Source: Gammaproteobacteria bacterium HGW-Gammaproteobacteria-15 (GTDB lineage Bacteria; Pseudomonadota; Gammaproteobacteria; Enterobacterales; Alteromonadaceae). From it: a DNA stretch of 64,000 nucleotides. The notes beneath the pieces are model-generated. The model had not been told where the DNA came from and did no database searches. It saw only the letters and a list, made by a program, of their open reading frames with translations. The stretch is from contig PGZF01000005.1 in assembly GCA_002840125.1 (NCBI GenBank), positions 372,001-436,000 of the forward strand, written 5' to 3'. Shown here one piece after another: positions 30,444-35,703 of this stretch. Each line of letters starts with the position of its first letter. The first letter of the stretch is position 1. Made by a program: the position numbers and the translations under genes.

Positions 30444-31670
30444 ATGCCACGTTATTCTGCTGAGTTTATTAAAGAGATGCCCAAATCTGATTTACACCTG
30501 CATCTGGATGGCAGCCTGCGGCTGGATAGCCTGATAGAAATGGCCAAACGCACCGGCACTAAACTACCAGCCGATACAGTAGAAGGCTTAAAACAGCTGG
30601 TATTTAAAGAAAAGTACAACAACCTGGGCGAATATTTGCACTGTTTTCAGTACACCTGTGCTGTGCTGCGCGATATGGAAAACTTAGAACGTGCGGCTTA
30701 TGAGCTGGCAATAGATAACCAGTTGGAAGGCGTAAACTATATTGAAGTGCGCTTTGCGCCGCAGCTGTTAATAGACCTGCCCAACGGTATCGATTTCGAC
30801 CGCGTAATGCATGCGGTTAATAACGGTTTAAAGCGCGCCATGAGTGAGTATAACCGCAGCGAAGTGGTAATGAGTGGCCAGAAACCGCCATTTGCCTACG
30901 GTATTATTAACTGCGCCATGCGGATGTTTGGTGATAAAGGCTTTTCGCCCTATTACACTAACCTGTTCCAGTTGATGCGCGATTTTGCGCCAATAGACGT
31001 CATTAAACTGGCCGCCATGGAGCTGGTGCGGGCCAGCGTAAGGCTGCGCGATGAAGAAGCTATACCAATAGTCGGGCTGGATTTAGCCGGCCAGGAATCC
31101 GGTTATCCGGCCAGTAAGTTTAAAGAGGTTTACGAATATGCCCACCAGCACTTTTTGCTGAAAACCCTGCACGCCGGTGAAGCCTATGGCGCTGAAAGCG
31201 TGTTTGAAGCCATTACCGAATGTTATGCCGACCGCATTGGCCATGGCTATTCGATGTTTATCCCCGAAATGATTTCGCACCCCGACATCGTCGACAAAGC
31301 CGCCTATATCCGCAACCTGGCGTCTTATATTGCTGATAAACGCATCGCCATAGAGGTTTGTTTAACCAGTAACCTGCAAACTAACCCCGCTATTAGCGAT
31401 ATTAAGCAGCATAAATTTAAAGATATGCTGGATAACCGTATTGCTACCGTTATTTGCACCGATAACCGTTTAGTGTCTAACACCACCGTTAGCAAAGAAT
31501 ACCAGCTGGCGCTGGACAACTTTGATATTCCGCTAAAACGGCTAAAAGACATCGTAGCCTATGGCTTTAAAAAGAGCTTTTTCCCCGGTACTTATGTGGA
31601 AAAGCGCGAATATGCCAAGCAATGTCTGGAGTATTTCGATCACGTTGCCAAGCGCTACGGCTTTATTTGA
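30444..31670 (+). CDS. Adenosine deaminase family protein with altered TDN motif
   Basis: This 408-residue amidohydrolase is longer than the usual 330-350 for bacterial adenosine deaminase. The metal and catalytic motifs are seen: KSDLHLHLDGSL, TLHAGEAYG (catalytic Glu) and RIGHGYSMF (catalytic His). The last motif, normally TDDP, reads CTDNRLVSN, so the metal-ligand Asp is kept but the second Asp, which contacts the purine N7, is Asn. It probably deaminates adenosine or a related nucleoside, with specificity uncertain. AAGGAG precedes the ATG. Confidence 0.85.
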   Translation: MPRYSAEFIKEMPKSDLHLHLDGSLRLDSLIEMAKRTGTKLPADTVEGLKQLVFKEKYNNLGEYLHCFQYTCAVLRDMENLERAAYELAIDNQLEGVNYIEVRFAPQLLIDLPNGIDFDRVMHAVNNGLKRAMSEYNRSEVVMSGQKPPFAYGIINCAMRMFGDKGFSPYYTNLFQLMRDFAPIDVIKLAAMELVRASVRLRDEEAIPIVGLDLAGQESGYPASKFKEVYEYAHQHFLLKTLHAGEAYGAESVFEAITECYADRIGHGYSMFIPEMISHPDIVDKAAYIRNLASYIADKRIAIEVCLTSNLQTNPAISDIKQHKFKDMLDNRIATVICTDNRLVSNTTVSKEYQLALDNFDIPLKRLKDIVAYGFKKSFFPGTYVEKREYAKQCLEYFDHVAKRYGFI

Positions 31671-31694: not shown

Positions 31695-31780
31695 TGTCGC
31701 AAAAAGCATACACAATAACTATTTGAAAAATAACATTTTTATATTTAGCCTACATTAACTGTTGCTAAACAGCGACAGTT
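31695..31780. promoter_or_regulatory. Candidate GlrR-type upstream activating sites
   Basis: E. coli GlrR binds TGTC-N10-GACA. The sequence at 31757-31780, AACTGTTGCT-AAAC-AGCGACAGTT, is an inverted repeat with one mismatch and contains TGTT-N10-GACA. A weaker copy, TGTC-N10-TACA, is at 31695-31712. They lie about 80 and 150 bases upstream of the sigma-54 promoter, the usual range for enhancer sites. Assignment to the GlrR encoded nearby is inference. Confidence 0.55.
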
Positions 31781-31860
31781 AATTCCTCTGCTGCGCCGCA
31801 CCTCATCACAAACAAATAATAAGCCGTTGATTAAAAACAAGAATAAAATAATTTTCAGAG

Positions 31861-31877
31861 TTGGCACAAGGCTTGTA
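31861..31877 (+). promoter_or_regulatory. Sigma-54 promoter (-24/-12)
   Basis: TTGGCACAAGGCTTGTA matches the sigma-54 consensus TGGCAC, 5 bases, TTGCA/T: the -24 element is perfect, the -12 element reads TTGT in place of TTGC, and the GG-to-G spacing is the required 12 bases. Transcription should start near 31888. No other promoter of this type was seen in the window. Confidence 0.75.
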
Positions 31878-31900
31878 TTAGTTATGCCAAGCGACGCTAC

Positions 31901-31958
31901 AGGAGAATGTCGCAAGCGCAACCAGATACACCGGAAGCTGCCTTTGCAACATTCTCCT
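31901..31958 (+). ncRNA. Candidate structured RNA: 15-bp hairpin at the 5' end of the sigma-54 transcript
   Basis: AGGAGAATGTCGCAA (31901-31915) and TTGCAACATTCTCCT (31944-31958) pair in 14 of 15 positions around a 28-base loop. It begins about 13 bases after the expected start of the sigma-54 transcript. Because enterobacteria have the sigma-54-driven sRNA GlmY at this place before glrK, a small regulatory RNA, or a leader that controls the next small gene, is possible. No sequence match to GlmY is claimed. Confidence 0.5.
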
Positions 31959-32013
31959 TCAAAACGTCTTAACGCAGCAAAATAGAGTAAAGGCTGCACT
32001 TACGGAGGTTGTT

Positions 32014-32214
32014 ATGGACTTTTTCTTACTTGGTACAGTGTTGTTTTTAATGGCTAACGTAGCTGTAGCAGTATCCATGTTACGCCGTGTAAATTTAAAC
32101 AATGACAGCGTTCTGGCTTGGGAGCAGGCTCAGGTTGTAGCAACACCAGCAGTTGCAGCGCCTCAGGTTCCGGCTACTCAGTATCAACCGGTTTATATGG
32201 CAAAGGCTGCTTAA
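32014..32214 (+). CDS. Small single-TM protein of unknown function under a sigma-54 promoter
   Basis: This 66-residue protein begins with a hydrophobic helix (FFLLGTVLFLMANVAVAVSML) then RRVNLNN and ends in an Ala/Pro/Gln-rich tail (AQVVATPAVAAPQVPATQYQ). It would be anchored in the inner membrane. A strong GGAGG lies 6 bases before the ATG and tandem terminators follow, so the gene is real and expressed as a short transcript of about 400 bases. It lies between a sigma-54 promoter and the glrK-qseG-glrR operon. I do not recognise its family. Confidence 0.75.
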   Translation: MDFFLLGTVLFLMANVAVAVSMLRRVNLNNDSVLAWEQAQVVATPAVAAPQVPATQYQPVYMAKAA

Positions 32215-32242
32215 CAGCACCTTTGCGTTACGATCCCATGAG

Positions 32243-32296
32243 TTCAGCACTTGCTGAATTTTTGTAAGGCCAGCACCCCACTGGCCTTTTTTTTTT
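32243..32296 (+). terminator. Tandem terminators after the small protein gene
   Basis: First hairpin: TTCAGCA-CT-TGCTGAA followed by TTTTT (32243-32263). Second: AAGGCCAG-7-CTGGCCTT followed by a run of ten or more T (32266-32296). Together they isolate the short transcript from glrK. Confidence 0.9.
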
Positions 32297-32346
32297 GCCA
32301 CGAAAATAGGGTATGCTTAACAGCCCTGTGATTAAGACAAACAATT

Positions 32347-33765
32347 ATGCGTTTTTCGATTCAGACCGCCTCTTTACGCCAGTTGGTATTGCTGAGCTTT
32401 TTTCTGGCGCTGATCCCCGTAGCCGTGCTGCTATGGCAAAGCCATAAAGCACTAAGCGGTGTCAGCCAGAATGCTGTAGCCGAAGCAGAAACCTCGGTAG
32501 CCAGTGTACGCCGGGCAGAGAATATGCAAAATCTGGTTGTGGATATAGAGCGTGCAGTACGCCAACATGCGGTGGTAAAAACCGATGCGCTGGCGCGGGT
32601 GGCGCGCACCCACCTGAACAGTTATCAGCAATTGCTGCGTCAGGTATGTGACAATGTAGGCCAGTCGCAACTGTGCCAGCAACAACAACTGCAGCTTGGC
32701 ATACTACTGGATAACTTTACTGAGCTTAGCAGCACAGAACTTGAACCGCTGATGCAGCAGTTCCGCCAGCAACAGCAACAGCTTACACAACAAATCTGGC
32801 TGCTGCTGGAGCAAAACCTGCAACAACAACAACGCTTTGTGGTAGAAAGCCAGCAACAGCTAGCCTGGCAAACTGTTGCGCTGGTGCTGTTAACGCTGCT
32901 GATCGTGCTGTGGGCATCTGGCCGGATCACCGCCCCGGTGCGTAAACTGGATAAAATGATCCGTGCTATTGGCCAGCAACATCAATTCCCCGATGAAAAA
33001 CTTACCGGGCCGCGTGAGTTGGCCGAATTGGGCGAACAACTGCGCTGGCTTAGTTCCCGCCTGCAACAACTGGAAGCCTTACGGCTGATTTTACTGCGCC
33101 ACGCCTCGCATGAGTTAAAAACGCCGCTGTCCAGTATTCGTGAAGGCTGCGCTTTGTTAAGTGAGCAGTTAGTTGGCCCGCTGAACAAACAACAACTGGA
33201 AGTGGTTGGCCTGCTAAACGGCAGTGCCGATAGGCTAAGCCAGTTAACTGAGCAACTGCTGGACTACAACCGCTTATTACAGCAAGCCAAACCCGAGCCA
33301 GACTGGCATTCGCCACAGCAATTATTTACCGACTGCTTTAACGACCATGCCTTATCACTGCAGCAGCGCGGCCAGGCTGTTGAGCTTAGCTGCCAGCTAA
33401 GTGCAATTTATACCGATATTACGCTGTTCCGGCGTATACTCGACAATCTGATCAACAATGCTCAAGCATATGGCAGCCAGGACAGCCCGGTGTGGGTAAA
33501 ACTATATCAGCAGGAACATCAGCTGATTTTAGATGTCGCAAATAACGGCAACCCTATTCCTACATCATTAAGGGAAAAACTGTTTGAACCGTTTCAGCGT
33601 GGTACTACACCACGCTTTGACTCAGTGCAGGGCTCTGGCCTGGGGTTGTCGATTGTTGCCGATTGTGCCCGCCTGTTGGGCGGCCATGCTGATATTGTTG
33701 ATGTTATTTATGCCGATGTCTGTATTAGGGTACGGCTACCGTTATTAGAGGAAAAACTGGGATGA
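32347..33765 (+). CDS. glrK: Sensor histidine kinase GlrK/QseE-like
   Basis: This 472-residue kinase has two TM helices (about 12-30 and 174-190) enclosing a glutamine-rich periplasmic helical domain, then a HAMP-like linker, the phospho-acceptor H255 in HASHELKTPLSSI and the ATPase domain (NLINNAQAYG, GSGLGLSIV). The operon order kinase, lipoprotein, sigma-54 activator matches glrK-qseG-glrR of enterobacteria, where the system responds to envelope stress and drives the sRNA glmY. It overlaps the lipoprotein gene by 4 bases. Confidence 0.9.
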   Translation: MRFSIQTASLRQLVLLSFFLALIPVAVLLWQSHKALSGVSQNAVAEAETSVASVRRAENMQNLVVDIERAVRQHAVVKTDALARVARTHLNSYQQLLRQVCDNVGQSQLCQQQQLQLGILLDNFTELSSTELEPLMQQFRQQQQQLTQQIWLLLEQNLQQQQRFVVESQQQLAWQTVALVLLTLLIVLWASGRITAPVRKLDKMIRAIGQQHQFPDEKLTGPRELAELGEQLRWLSSRLQQLEALRLILLRHASHELKTPLSSIREGCALLSEQLVGPLNKQQLEVVGLLNGSADRLSQLTEQLLDYNRLLQQAKPEPDWHSPQQLFTDCFNDHALSLQQRGQAVELSCQLSAIYTDITLFRRILDNLINNAQAYGSQDSPVWVKLYQQEHQLILDVANNGNPIPTSLREKLFEPFQRGTTPRFDSVQGSGLGLSIVADCARLLGGHADIVDVIYADVCIRVRLPLLEEKLG

Positions 33766-34367
33766 GAACTGGGTTAATTTTTGTGGCCATACTGGCACTT
33801 AGCGGCTGCCAGCTTGCACCACAACCGGTAGCGCCTGAACCAATAGCCGAGCCCTTGCTGGAGGCCGAACCAGAGCCGGTAATGCTACCCGAGCCTGAAC
33901 CGGTAAAAACCCCTTTAGCCATTGCCGGTGATGCCGCAACGTTGCAGGCCTGGGTAAATTACCGCGCAGCCATGTTAAACCGCATTAATGAAGAGCGCGA
34001 TTTACTTAACAGCGAAACGGCCCAGGACGATGTATGGATATTAAAGCGCACCATTTTACAGCTGCACCCGGATACGCCTTACCTTACCCGCTTACGGGTG
34101 CAGATGCAGTCGGCCGATCAACTGGCGGCTTTACCTGCGCCTTTGGCCGCACTACTAAGCTGGGATCTGGTGTTTAACCAAAAATTACTGGAAGCCGAAT
34201 CAGCGGTAAGTGCCTTAACCCGGCTTAATGCGCAGCAGCACGATAATCTTGAACGGCTGCAAAAAACCAACAAAGAACTGCAGAAAAAAATTGATGCGCT
34301 AACCCAGATAGAAGCGCAGTTAAACCAGCCCGCGCCGGTTAAAGAGGACAACAATGGCCAGCCCTAA
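33762..34367 (+). CDS. QseG-like lipoprotein
   Basis: This 201-residue protein has a lipoprotein signal peptide (IFVAILALSGC, C16), an acidic proline-rich stretch (about 20-50) and a C-terminal coiled coil (LERLQKTNKELQKKIDALTQIEAQL). Its place between the kinase and sigma-54 regulator genes, with overlaps of 4 and 14 bases, matches QseG/YfhG, an outer-membrane lipoprotein that interacts with the kinase. The sequence itself is poorly conserved, so the call rests largely on context. Confidence 0.8.
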   Translation: MRTGLIFVAILALSGCQLAPQPVAPEPIAEPLLEAEPEPVMLPEPEPVKTPLAIAGDAATLQAWVNYRAAMLNRINEERDLLNSETAQDDVWILKRTILQLHPDTPYLTRLRVQMQSADQLAALPAPLAALLSWDLVFNQKLLEAESAVSALTRLNAQQHDNLERLQKTNKELQKKIDALTQIEAQLNQPAPVKEDNNGQP

Positions 34368-35703
34368 GCCTAAGTTATTGCTTGTTGACGATGATCCCAG
34401 CTTACTGCGCCTGCTAACCCTGCGTCTTGAAGGCGAAGGTTATCAGGTGATCAGTGCTGATTCAGCAGAGGCAGCTTTGCCACTGCTGATGAAAAACAGC
34501 GTGGATGTGGTACTAAGCGACTTGCGGATGCCTGGCCTGGACGGCATGAGCCTGTTTGATGAAATTGCCAAACGCTACCCCGGCCTGCCAGTGGTGTTGA
34601 TGACGGCACATGGCTCAATCCCTGAGGCTGTTGCTGCCACTCAGCGCGGTGTATTTGGCTTTTTAACCAAACCGCTTAACACCAATGAGCTGCGTGATAT
34701 TCTGCAAAATGCTGTGCATCAGTCCGTGCCGGAACAGGCCGAATGGCGGGCTGAAATTATTACCCGCTCCCGTTTAATGGAAGAACTGCTGGAACAAAGC
34801 TACCGCGTGGCACAGCGCGATGTCAGCGTGCTGATCACCGGCGCCAGCGGTACCGGTAAAGAGCTGTTGGCAAAAGCTATTCATAAAGCCAGCCCGCGCG
34901 GAAGTAAGCCATTTGTTGCCATTAACTGTGGCGCCCTGCCCGAGCACTTGCTGGAATCAGAATTATTTGGCCACACCAAAGGTGCCTTTACCGGCGCCGT
35001 TACCGAGCACGGCGGCCTGTTTCGTGAAGCCGATGGCGGCACACTGTTTTTAGATGAAATTGGCGATATGCCGGTGTCTTTGCAGGTAAAACTGCTGCGT
35101 GCACTGCAGGAGCGGCAAATACGCCCGGTAGGCAGCAGTAAAACCGTGCCGATCAACGTGCGGGTGCTGTCGGCAACTCACCGTGATTTACAGCAGGCAA
35201 TGGGCGATGGCAGCTTTCGTGAAGACTTATACTACCGCTTAAACGTGGTTAACCTGCAACTGCCCAGCCTGGAACAGCGGCCGGAAGATATTCCGCTGCT
35301 GGCGCGCCATGTGCTACAGCAAAGTGTTGAGCGCCACCAGGTAGATGTAACCCGTTTTTCTGATGATGCATTGCAGCTGTTAGCCACCGCCAAATGGCCC
35401 GGTAACGTGCGCCAGCTGGTAAACGTGGTAGAGCAATGTGTGGCGTTAACCCACAGCCCGGTTATTGGTGCGGCGCAGGTCGAGCAGGCGCTGTCGCATG
35501 ACAGCAGCTACTGGCCAACGTTAACCGAAGCGCGTGACCAGTTTGAGCGCCAGTACCTTATCCGCGTATTGCAGATGACAGAAGGCAATGTTACCCGCGC
35601 CGCAGAACTGGCCGGGCGTAACCGCACCGACTTTTATAAATTACTGAAAAAACATGAACTCAGCGCCGCTCAGATCACTGAGCAAAGCGATGAAACGGAA
35701 TAG
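34354..35703 (+). CDS. glrR: Sigma-54-dependent response regulator GlrR/QseF-like
   Basis: This 449-residue regulator has a receiver domain (phospho-acceptor D56 in DVVLSDLRMPG), an AAA+ sigma-54 activator domain with Walker A GASGTGKE, the sigma-54-contact loop GAFTGA and FLDEIGDMP, and a C-terminal Fis-type HTH (NVTRAAELAGRNRTDFYKLLKKH). It is the likely activator of the only sigma-54 promoter in the window, located about 2.5 kb upstream in front of the same operon. Confidence 0.93.
   Translation: MASPKPKLLLVDDDPSLLRLLTLRLEGEGYQVISADSAEAALPLLMKNSVDVVLSDLRMPGLDGMSLFDEIAKRYPGLPVVLMTAHGSIPEAVAATQRGVFGFLTKPLNTNELRDILQNAVHQSVPEQAEWRAEIITRSRLMEELLEQSYRVAQRDVSVLITGASGTGKELLAKAIHKASPRGSKPFVAINCGALPEHLLESELFGHTKGAFTGAVTEHGGLFREADGGTLFLDEIGDMPVSLQVKLLRALQERQIRPVGSSKTVPINVRVLSATHRDLQQAMGDGSFREDLYYRLNVVNLQLPSLEQRPEDIPLLARHVLQQSVERHQVDVTRFSDDALQLLATAKWPGNVRQLVNVVEQCVALTHSPVIGAAQVEQALSHDSSYWPTLTEARDQFERQYLIRVLQMTEGNVTRAAELAGRNRTDFYKLLKKHELSAAQITEQSDETE

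Follow-up and report, generated by a model that had tools for sequence, protein, structure and literature searches.

We find that the slot in front of glrK, which in enterobacteria holds the small RNA gene glmY, very probably carries a stand-alone GlrR/sigma-54 unit whose output is a 66-amino-acid (66-aa) membrane microprotein instead of GlmY, judging from the 64,000-nt stretch of Rheinheimera DNA analysed here (the window) and its relatives. The kind of unit, a GlrR/sigma-54 output located before glrK, is known; its product is new. GlrK/GlrR is known mostly through GlmY of enterobacteria; beyond that group it would have a protein as output. The locus suggests a case in which the regulatory position and its switch are conserved while the products, RNA or protein, are exchanged.

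All elements of the unit lie in a 676-base gap between an adenosine-deaminase-family gene and the glrK-qseG-glrR genes (Table 1). The product of glrR comprises a receiver domain, a sigma-54 AAA+ domain and a Fis-type helix-turn-helix (Pfam domains), and comparison with E. coli GlrR shows that the GRNRTxFYKLL stretch of the recognition helix is retained in this helix-turn-helix. Among NCBIfam models, the GlrR model NF011695 scores 695.7 bits and the next model 416. This score lies below the NCBI equivalog cut-off of 763, which may be tuned to enterobacteria, and the orthologue call therefore rests on identity and gene order. The protein encoded at the qseG position resembles E. coli QseG only weakly (E = 0.012). 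Together with the promoter elements described below, these neighbouring genes agree with the original prediction that the glmY position is occupied by a unit of the sigma-54/GlrR type.

Table 1 Features of the microprotein unit and its surroundings (positions in the window)
Feature	Position	Strand	Basis or remark
add (adenosine-deaminase-family gene)	30444-31670		Upstream neighbour
GlrR-type upstream activating site 1, TGTCGCAAAAAGCATACA (TGTN12ACA)	31695..31712	+	Consensus match; 65 bp before site 2
GlrR-type upstream activating site 2, TGTTGCTAAACAGCGACA (TGTN12ACA)	31760..31777	+	Consensus match; inside inverted repeat TTAACTGTTGC/GCGACAGTTAA
IHF-like site, AATCAACGGCTTA (WATCAANNNNTTR)	31820..31832	-	Consensus match; weak alone
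Sigma-54 promoter TTGGCAC-N5-TTGTA, TTGGCACAAGGCTTGTA	31861..31877	+	Sequence; 38/38 loci
Leader RNA hairpin near predicted 5′ end	31901..31958	+	~20 pairs; -23 kcal/mol
66-aa single-helix membrane microprotein gene	32014..32214	+	ORF; GGAGG before ORF; conservation
First terminator-like hairpin, TTCAGC-ACTT-GCTGAA-TTTTT	32243..32263	+	6-bp stem, by eye; missed by terminator scan
Second, strong intrinsic terminator	32266..32296	+	8-bp stem and T-run, scan match; retained in relatives
Putative glrK promoter element, conserved AAAATAGGGTATGCTTA	32303..32319	+	-10 type, no clear -35; read from relatives
glrK-qseG-glrR	32347-35703		Downstream of gap
glrK (qseE), sensor kinase	32347..33765	+	Pfam/NCBIfam; 34.6% identical to E. 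coli QseE
qseG-position lipoprotein	33762..34367	+	Position; lipobox LSGC read from sequence
glrR (qseF), sigma-54 response regulator	34354..35703	+	NF011695 best by far; 64% identical to E. coli GlrR

The TGGCAC of the sigma-54 promoter begins at 31862. The E. coli glmY locus, used as a control, has its TGGCAC at 1275 and the GlmY RNA at 1302, and applying this offset predicts a transcript start at ~31889, compared with 31888 in the original prediction. The pattern TGGCACN5TTGTA has five copies in the 4.7-Mb genome, another of which precedes a flgB-like flagellar gene. The two upstream sites match the GlrR/QseF consensus TGTN12ACA (PMC6075780), and site 2 is positioned 102 bp from the -24 element. 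Two or more TGTN12ACA sites appeared in this upstream stretch in only 3 of 2,000 dinucleotide shuffles. The IHF-like site also appeared in 70 of 2,000 shuffles and is weak evidence on its own; the relatives examined have IHF-like sites that are exact or carry one mismatch.

We compared the control regions of 38 loci (30 of the genus Rheinheimera, four of Alkalimonas and four of a sister genus). The sigma-54 site is present in every one of them; poor conservation of the promoter in relatives had been named as grounds for rejecting the proposal. In 36 loci the paired TGTN12ACA sites are present at a spacing of exactly 65 bp. The distance from site 2 to the -24 element takes values of 80–81, 91–92, 101–102 and 112–114 bp across the loci. 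These steps of about one helical turn are the pattern expected if the enhancer has to face the polymerase. The helical phase of this distance gives a Rayleigh R of 0.95; computed over the nine distinct distances, R is 0.90 with p ~7e-4, which serves as a guide only, the loci being related and not independent. The anatomy, conservation, coding capacity and geometry of the unit are read directly from compared sequences, whereas control of the microprotein promoter by GlrR and RpoN is predicted.

The locus shares with the glmY-qseE-qseG-qseF locus of Enterobacteriaceae its position before glrK, the sigma-54 promoter, the upstream TGTN12ACA sites, a regulator of clear sequence identity (64% to E. 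coli GlrR) and, apparently, a separate promoter for the downstream kinase operon (PMC6075780). The product differs, being the mRNA of a membrane protein here and the RapZ-binding small RNA GlmY in Enterobacteriaceae, as does the gene upstream (add here, purL there). The window locus has two sites with a spacing of 65 bp, the second being 102 bp from -24. E. coli glmY has three, of which the last two, TGTCGCTTTCTGGCGACA and TGTCTCTTTTTGGCGACA, are 63 bp apart, with TGTCTCTTTTTGGCGACA 107 bp from -24. At this distance, the spacing phase of the Rheinheimera-group loci fails for the E. coli promoter, but the type of site agrees.

The 66-aa protein matched nothing in Pfam, NCBIfam or the PDB, searched singly or as a set of 14 relatives, in line with the earlier view that it belongs to no recognised family. 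The best weak matches of the family (E 0.037–0.14) are to unrelated families, and the Psp families of Pfam and NCBIfam gave no match. R. pacifica and Rheinheimera sp. EpRS3, the closest named relatives, have an identical protein, and relatives of it are encoded in every one of the 31 genomes of the genus (the taxonomy used counts Arsukibacterium within it), in all four Alkalimonas genomes and in all four sampled genomes of one sister genus. A profile search of 395 genomes of the order confined good scores to the Rheinheimera genus, Alkalimonas and the sister genus. Five further matches at the level of the order (E 0.0001–0.008) were partial, four being interrupted by internal stops, and are probably fortuitous.

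Most pairs with measurable dS have a dN/dS of ~0.03–0.14, and changes fall mostly at third positions. The ORF is under strong purifying, protein-level selection, and its synonymous sites are near saturation. Together with the GGAGG that precedes it, this agrees with the proposed 66-codon membrane protein with a strong ribosome site. M1, D2, F11, N15, R24, V33, E37 and Q40 are invariant in the family. AlphaFold2 predicts one helix spanning residues 3–43 followed by disorder, a model that describes the helix and says nothing of function. Because D2 precedes the hydrophobic stretch and RR follows it, the positive-inside rule predicts an N-out, C-in topology, with the conserved RR(I/V)(D/N)LNNxSVxAWExxQ stretch then facing the cytoplasm.

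In 35 of the 38 loci, glrK is located 115–210 nt from the microprotein gene, so that homologues keep the same neighbour, as had been anticipated. In three of the four sister-genus loci the two genes are separated by 1 kb or more of inserted DNA, showing that this tight linkage is not required. One sister-genus genome has a tandem array, reading as MDWNLRRAGTSPRPYRVKIIPDDFLFVSIHGAYPT repeats, between the microprotein gene and glrK (L016:1787-2650). The tandem terminators that had been proposed behind the ORF are both found, the second by scan and the first by eye; hairpins similar to the first (32243-32263) are present in Rheinheimera and Arsukibacterium. Beyond them, AAAATAGGGTATGCTTA is a putative promoter element of glrK, analogous to the sigma-70 promoter of qseEGF that is located downstream of glmY in E. 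coli (PMC6075780). The terminators and this conserved TATGCT-like element before glrK suggest that the microprotein gene is a separate transcription unit. In this detail the locus would differ from the original prediction, which placed the gene with the glrK operon.

The leader hairpin is also present, with ~20 pairs rather than the 15 bp first proposed. On its own it has z = -4.7 relative to shuffles, but the whole leader reaches only z = -1.5. Across 12 Rheinheimera leaders, 17 of 18 consensus pairs are unchanged, and the loop varies in length. No pair in these leaders changed on both sides, so the structure rests on stability and invariance and not on covariation. That it stays constant when synonymous changes in the codons approach saturation suggests a function, perhaps in mRNA stability. 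Arsukibacterium is without the hairpin and has a predicted start ~19 nt before the ATG, and the sister genus has a different leader hairpin. The hairpin thus seems to be an add-on, and the persistence of protein and promoter with a ~19-nt leader in Arsukibacterium indicates that the protein, not the leader RNA, is the common product. A search for GlmY (Rfam RF00128) found no match in the window, in its genome or in 18 congeners; the E. coli positive control was matched, its glmY locus scoring 147 bits at the expected start. These results fit the suggestion that the protein stands in place of GlmY. The leader matched no Rfam RNA at the gathering score. A weak match to Burkholderia ncS54 (E = 0.0016), located at the terminator, was rejected because its 25.8 bits fall short of the gathering score, 43.

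These data bear on three readings that compete with a GlrR-driven protein unit. The first makes the leader hairpin the functional output, as a small RNA of the GlmY kind, and the ORF a passenger. In its favour are the unchanged stem of the 12 Rheinheimera leaders, despite near-saturated synonymous sites in the ORF, and the covarying structured leader RNA in the glrK slot of other genera (see below). We nevertheless consider this improbable: the short-leader Arsukibacterium locus retains promoter and protein, the ORF is under strong protein-level selection, GlmY has no match, the hairpin (31901-31958) is not followed by a T-run and the genome has no second full copy of the leader. Slightly less probable still is a sigma-54 promoter served by an enhancer-binding protein other than GlrR. 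Several activators of this class are encoded in such genomes, but the sites fit the GlrR/QseF consensus TGTN12ACA (PMC6075780) and resemble those of E. coli glmY, and the regulator encoded next to the unit is the close homologue of E. coli GlrR. Some copies of TGGCACN5TTGTA elsewhere in the genome are probably without function, which would leave room for a chance sigma-54-like site before a spurious intergenic ORF; the promoter, the paired sites and the ORF are all conserved across 38 loci from several genera, which makes chance implausible and in effect refutes this reading.

For a GlrR-driven protein unit, we envisage the following mechanism. An envelope condition would be sensed by GlrK and its lipoprotein, phosphorylated GlrR would bind the two TGTN12ACA sites and a bend at the IHF-like site would bring it to the sigma-54 polymerase. 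A short mRNA (~31889-32296) would be made, its 5′ hairpin probably shielding or tuning it, and the terminators would separate the unit from glrK. The microprotein, translated from the strong ribosome site, would be held in the inner membrane by one helix, where it would most likely act as an accessory or feedback modulator of GlrK–QseG, with a role as an envelope effector nearly as likely.

What the microprotein does we infer from analogy. Small envelope proteins encoded beside a two-component system often serve that system, as ZraP and CpxP do, which gives a slight lean to the accessory or feedback role; taken by itself, this modulator role is held tentatively, at a little under even chances, and the inserts between the gene and glrK in three sister-genus loci weigh against it. 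ZraP, CpxP and MgrB each modulate the kinase of the two-component system that controls them. The first two are periplasmic proteins, and the gene of ZraP, a sigma-54-dependent target of ZraR, is located beside its two-component system. The microprotein resembles these three in being a small envelope protein whose gene is a target, predicted here and known there, of its two-component system; by sequence they were compared through the family searches. The topology of MgrB is opposite to that predicted here. PspB and PspG are sigma-54-dependent small inner-membrane proteins activated by PspF. PspB is N-out, C-in, like the prediction here, and the activator differs. The competing role, which we regard as quite possible though also short of even, is that of an envelope-response effector acting on the membrane, on envelope enzymes or on transport without contacting GlrK, and placed before glrK for its enhancer and promoter slot. 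An unrelated secreted EF-hand protein occupies the slot in other Alteromonadaceae, a likely second target with the same promoter layout is a secreted microprotein encoded far from glrK, and the product of the E. coli slot, GlmY, is itself an effector whose over-expression did not significantly change the level of QseG (PMC6075780). Nothing specific speaks against an effector, except that the microprotein gene is closely co-inherited with glrK in all genera that have it.

The second target was found through another strong palindrome in the genome, which precedes a gene for a 59-aa secreted microprotein (G000:C5:450268-450655, minus strand) adjoining frdC-, frdD- and frdB-like genes. In seven of the 31 genomes of the genus, this unit has two sites 65 bp apart with the -24 element at 91–93 bp; site 2 of the unit differs from the consensus at its first three positions. 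Among ~20 GlrR-like places in the genome, a convincing sigma-54 site is present only at the glrK slot and at this frd-adjacent unit, where it was detected without requiring TTG at -12. The layout common to two unrelated genes points to one activator, for which GlrR is the natural candidate, and the genome thus likely has at least two GlrR targets; we found nothing in the literature on GlrR targets in this group. The arrangement provides a rule for finding further targets in Alteromonadaceae (two sites 65 bp apart, ~92 bp from -24), and these small envelope proteins offer a set of concrete candidates for testing.

In other Alteromonadaceae (L088-L103), whose GlrK is 42–47% identical, the slot mostly carries the small secreted EF-hand protein. 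Kinship of the 66-aa protein with it, raised by one member's weak EF-hand_8 match and by the RIDLNN stretch, is not supported, the hhalign probability being 1%. Most of these slots have sigma-54-like promoters, of variable quality, and TGTN12ACA sites, which are often at 157 or 92 bp. In many of them (L088-L098), the EF-hand gene follows a structured leader RNA that carries CTGGTTCCT and TGCGATGGCGTTTGCAAC and is located ~0.5–0.65 kb before glrK. The five-pair hairpin around CTGGTTCCT covaries, with 12 cells changed on both sides compared with 0 of 500 shuffles. This leader has no Rfam match, and under strict filters its model matches the glrK slot only, in two genomes among 296. A later GGCAAGGATGCC-type hairpin of the same leader resembles a CsrA site.

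It is conceivable, though we would put it below even chances and below either role of the microprotein, that the glrK slot is a GlrR/sigma-54 output cassette of gammaproteobacteria. Its type of enhancer would be constant and its product exchanged, from GlmY in enterobacteria, through a new structured RNA with a secreted EF-hand protein in several Alteromonadaceae, to a GlrK-feedback membrane microprotein in the Rheinheimera clade. At the level of the class, the kinase search returned only relatives of 26–34% identity. As a separate observation, a genome from another family of the order (L187, G156:C1:648738) has a true GlmY before a GlrK relative of 33% identity, with three TGTN12ACA sites.
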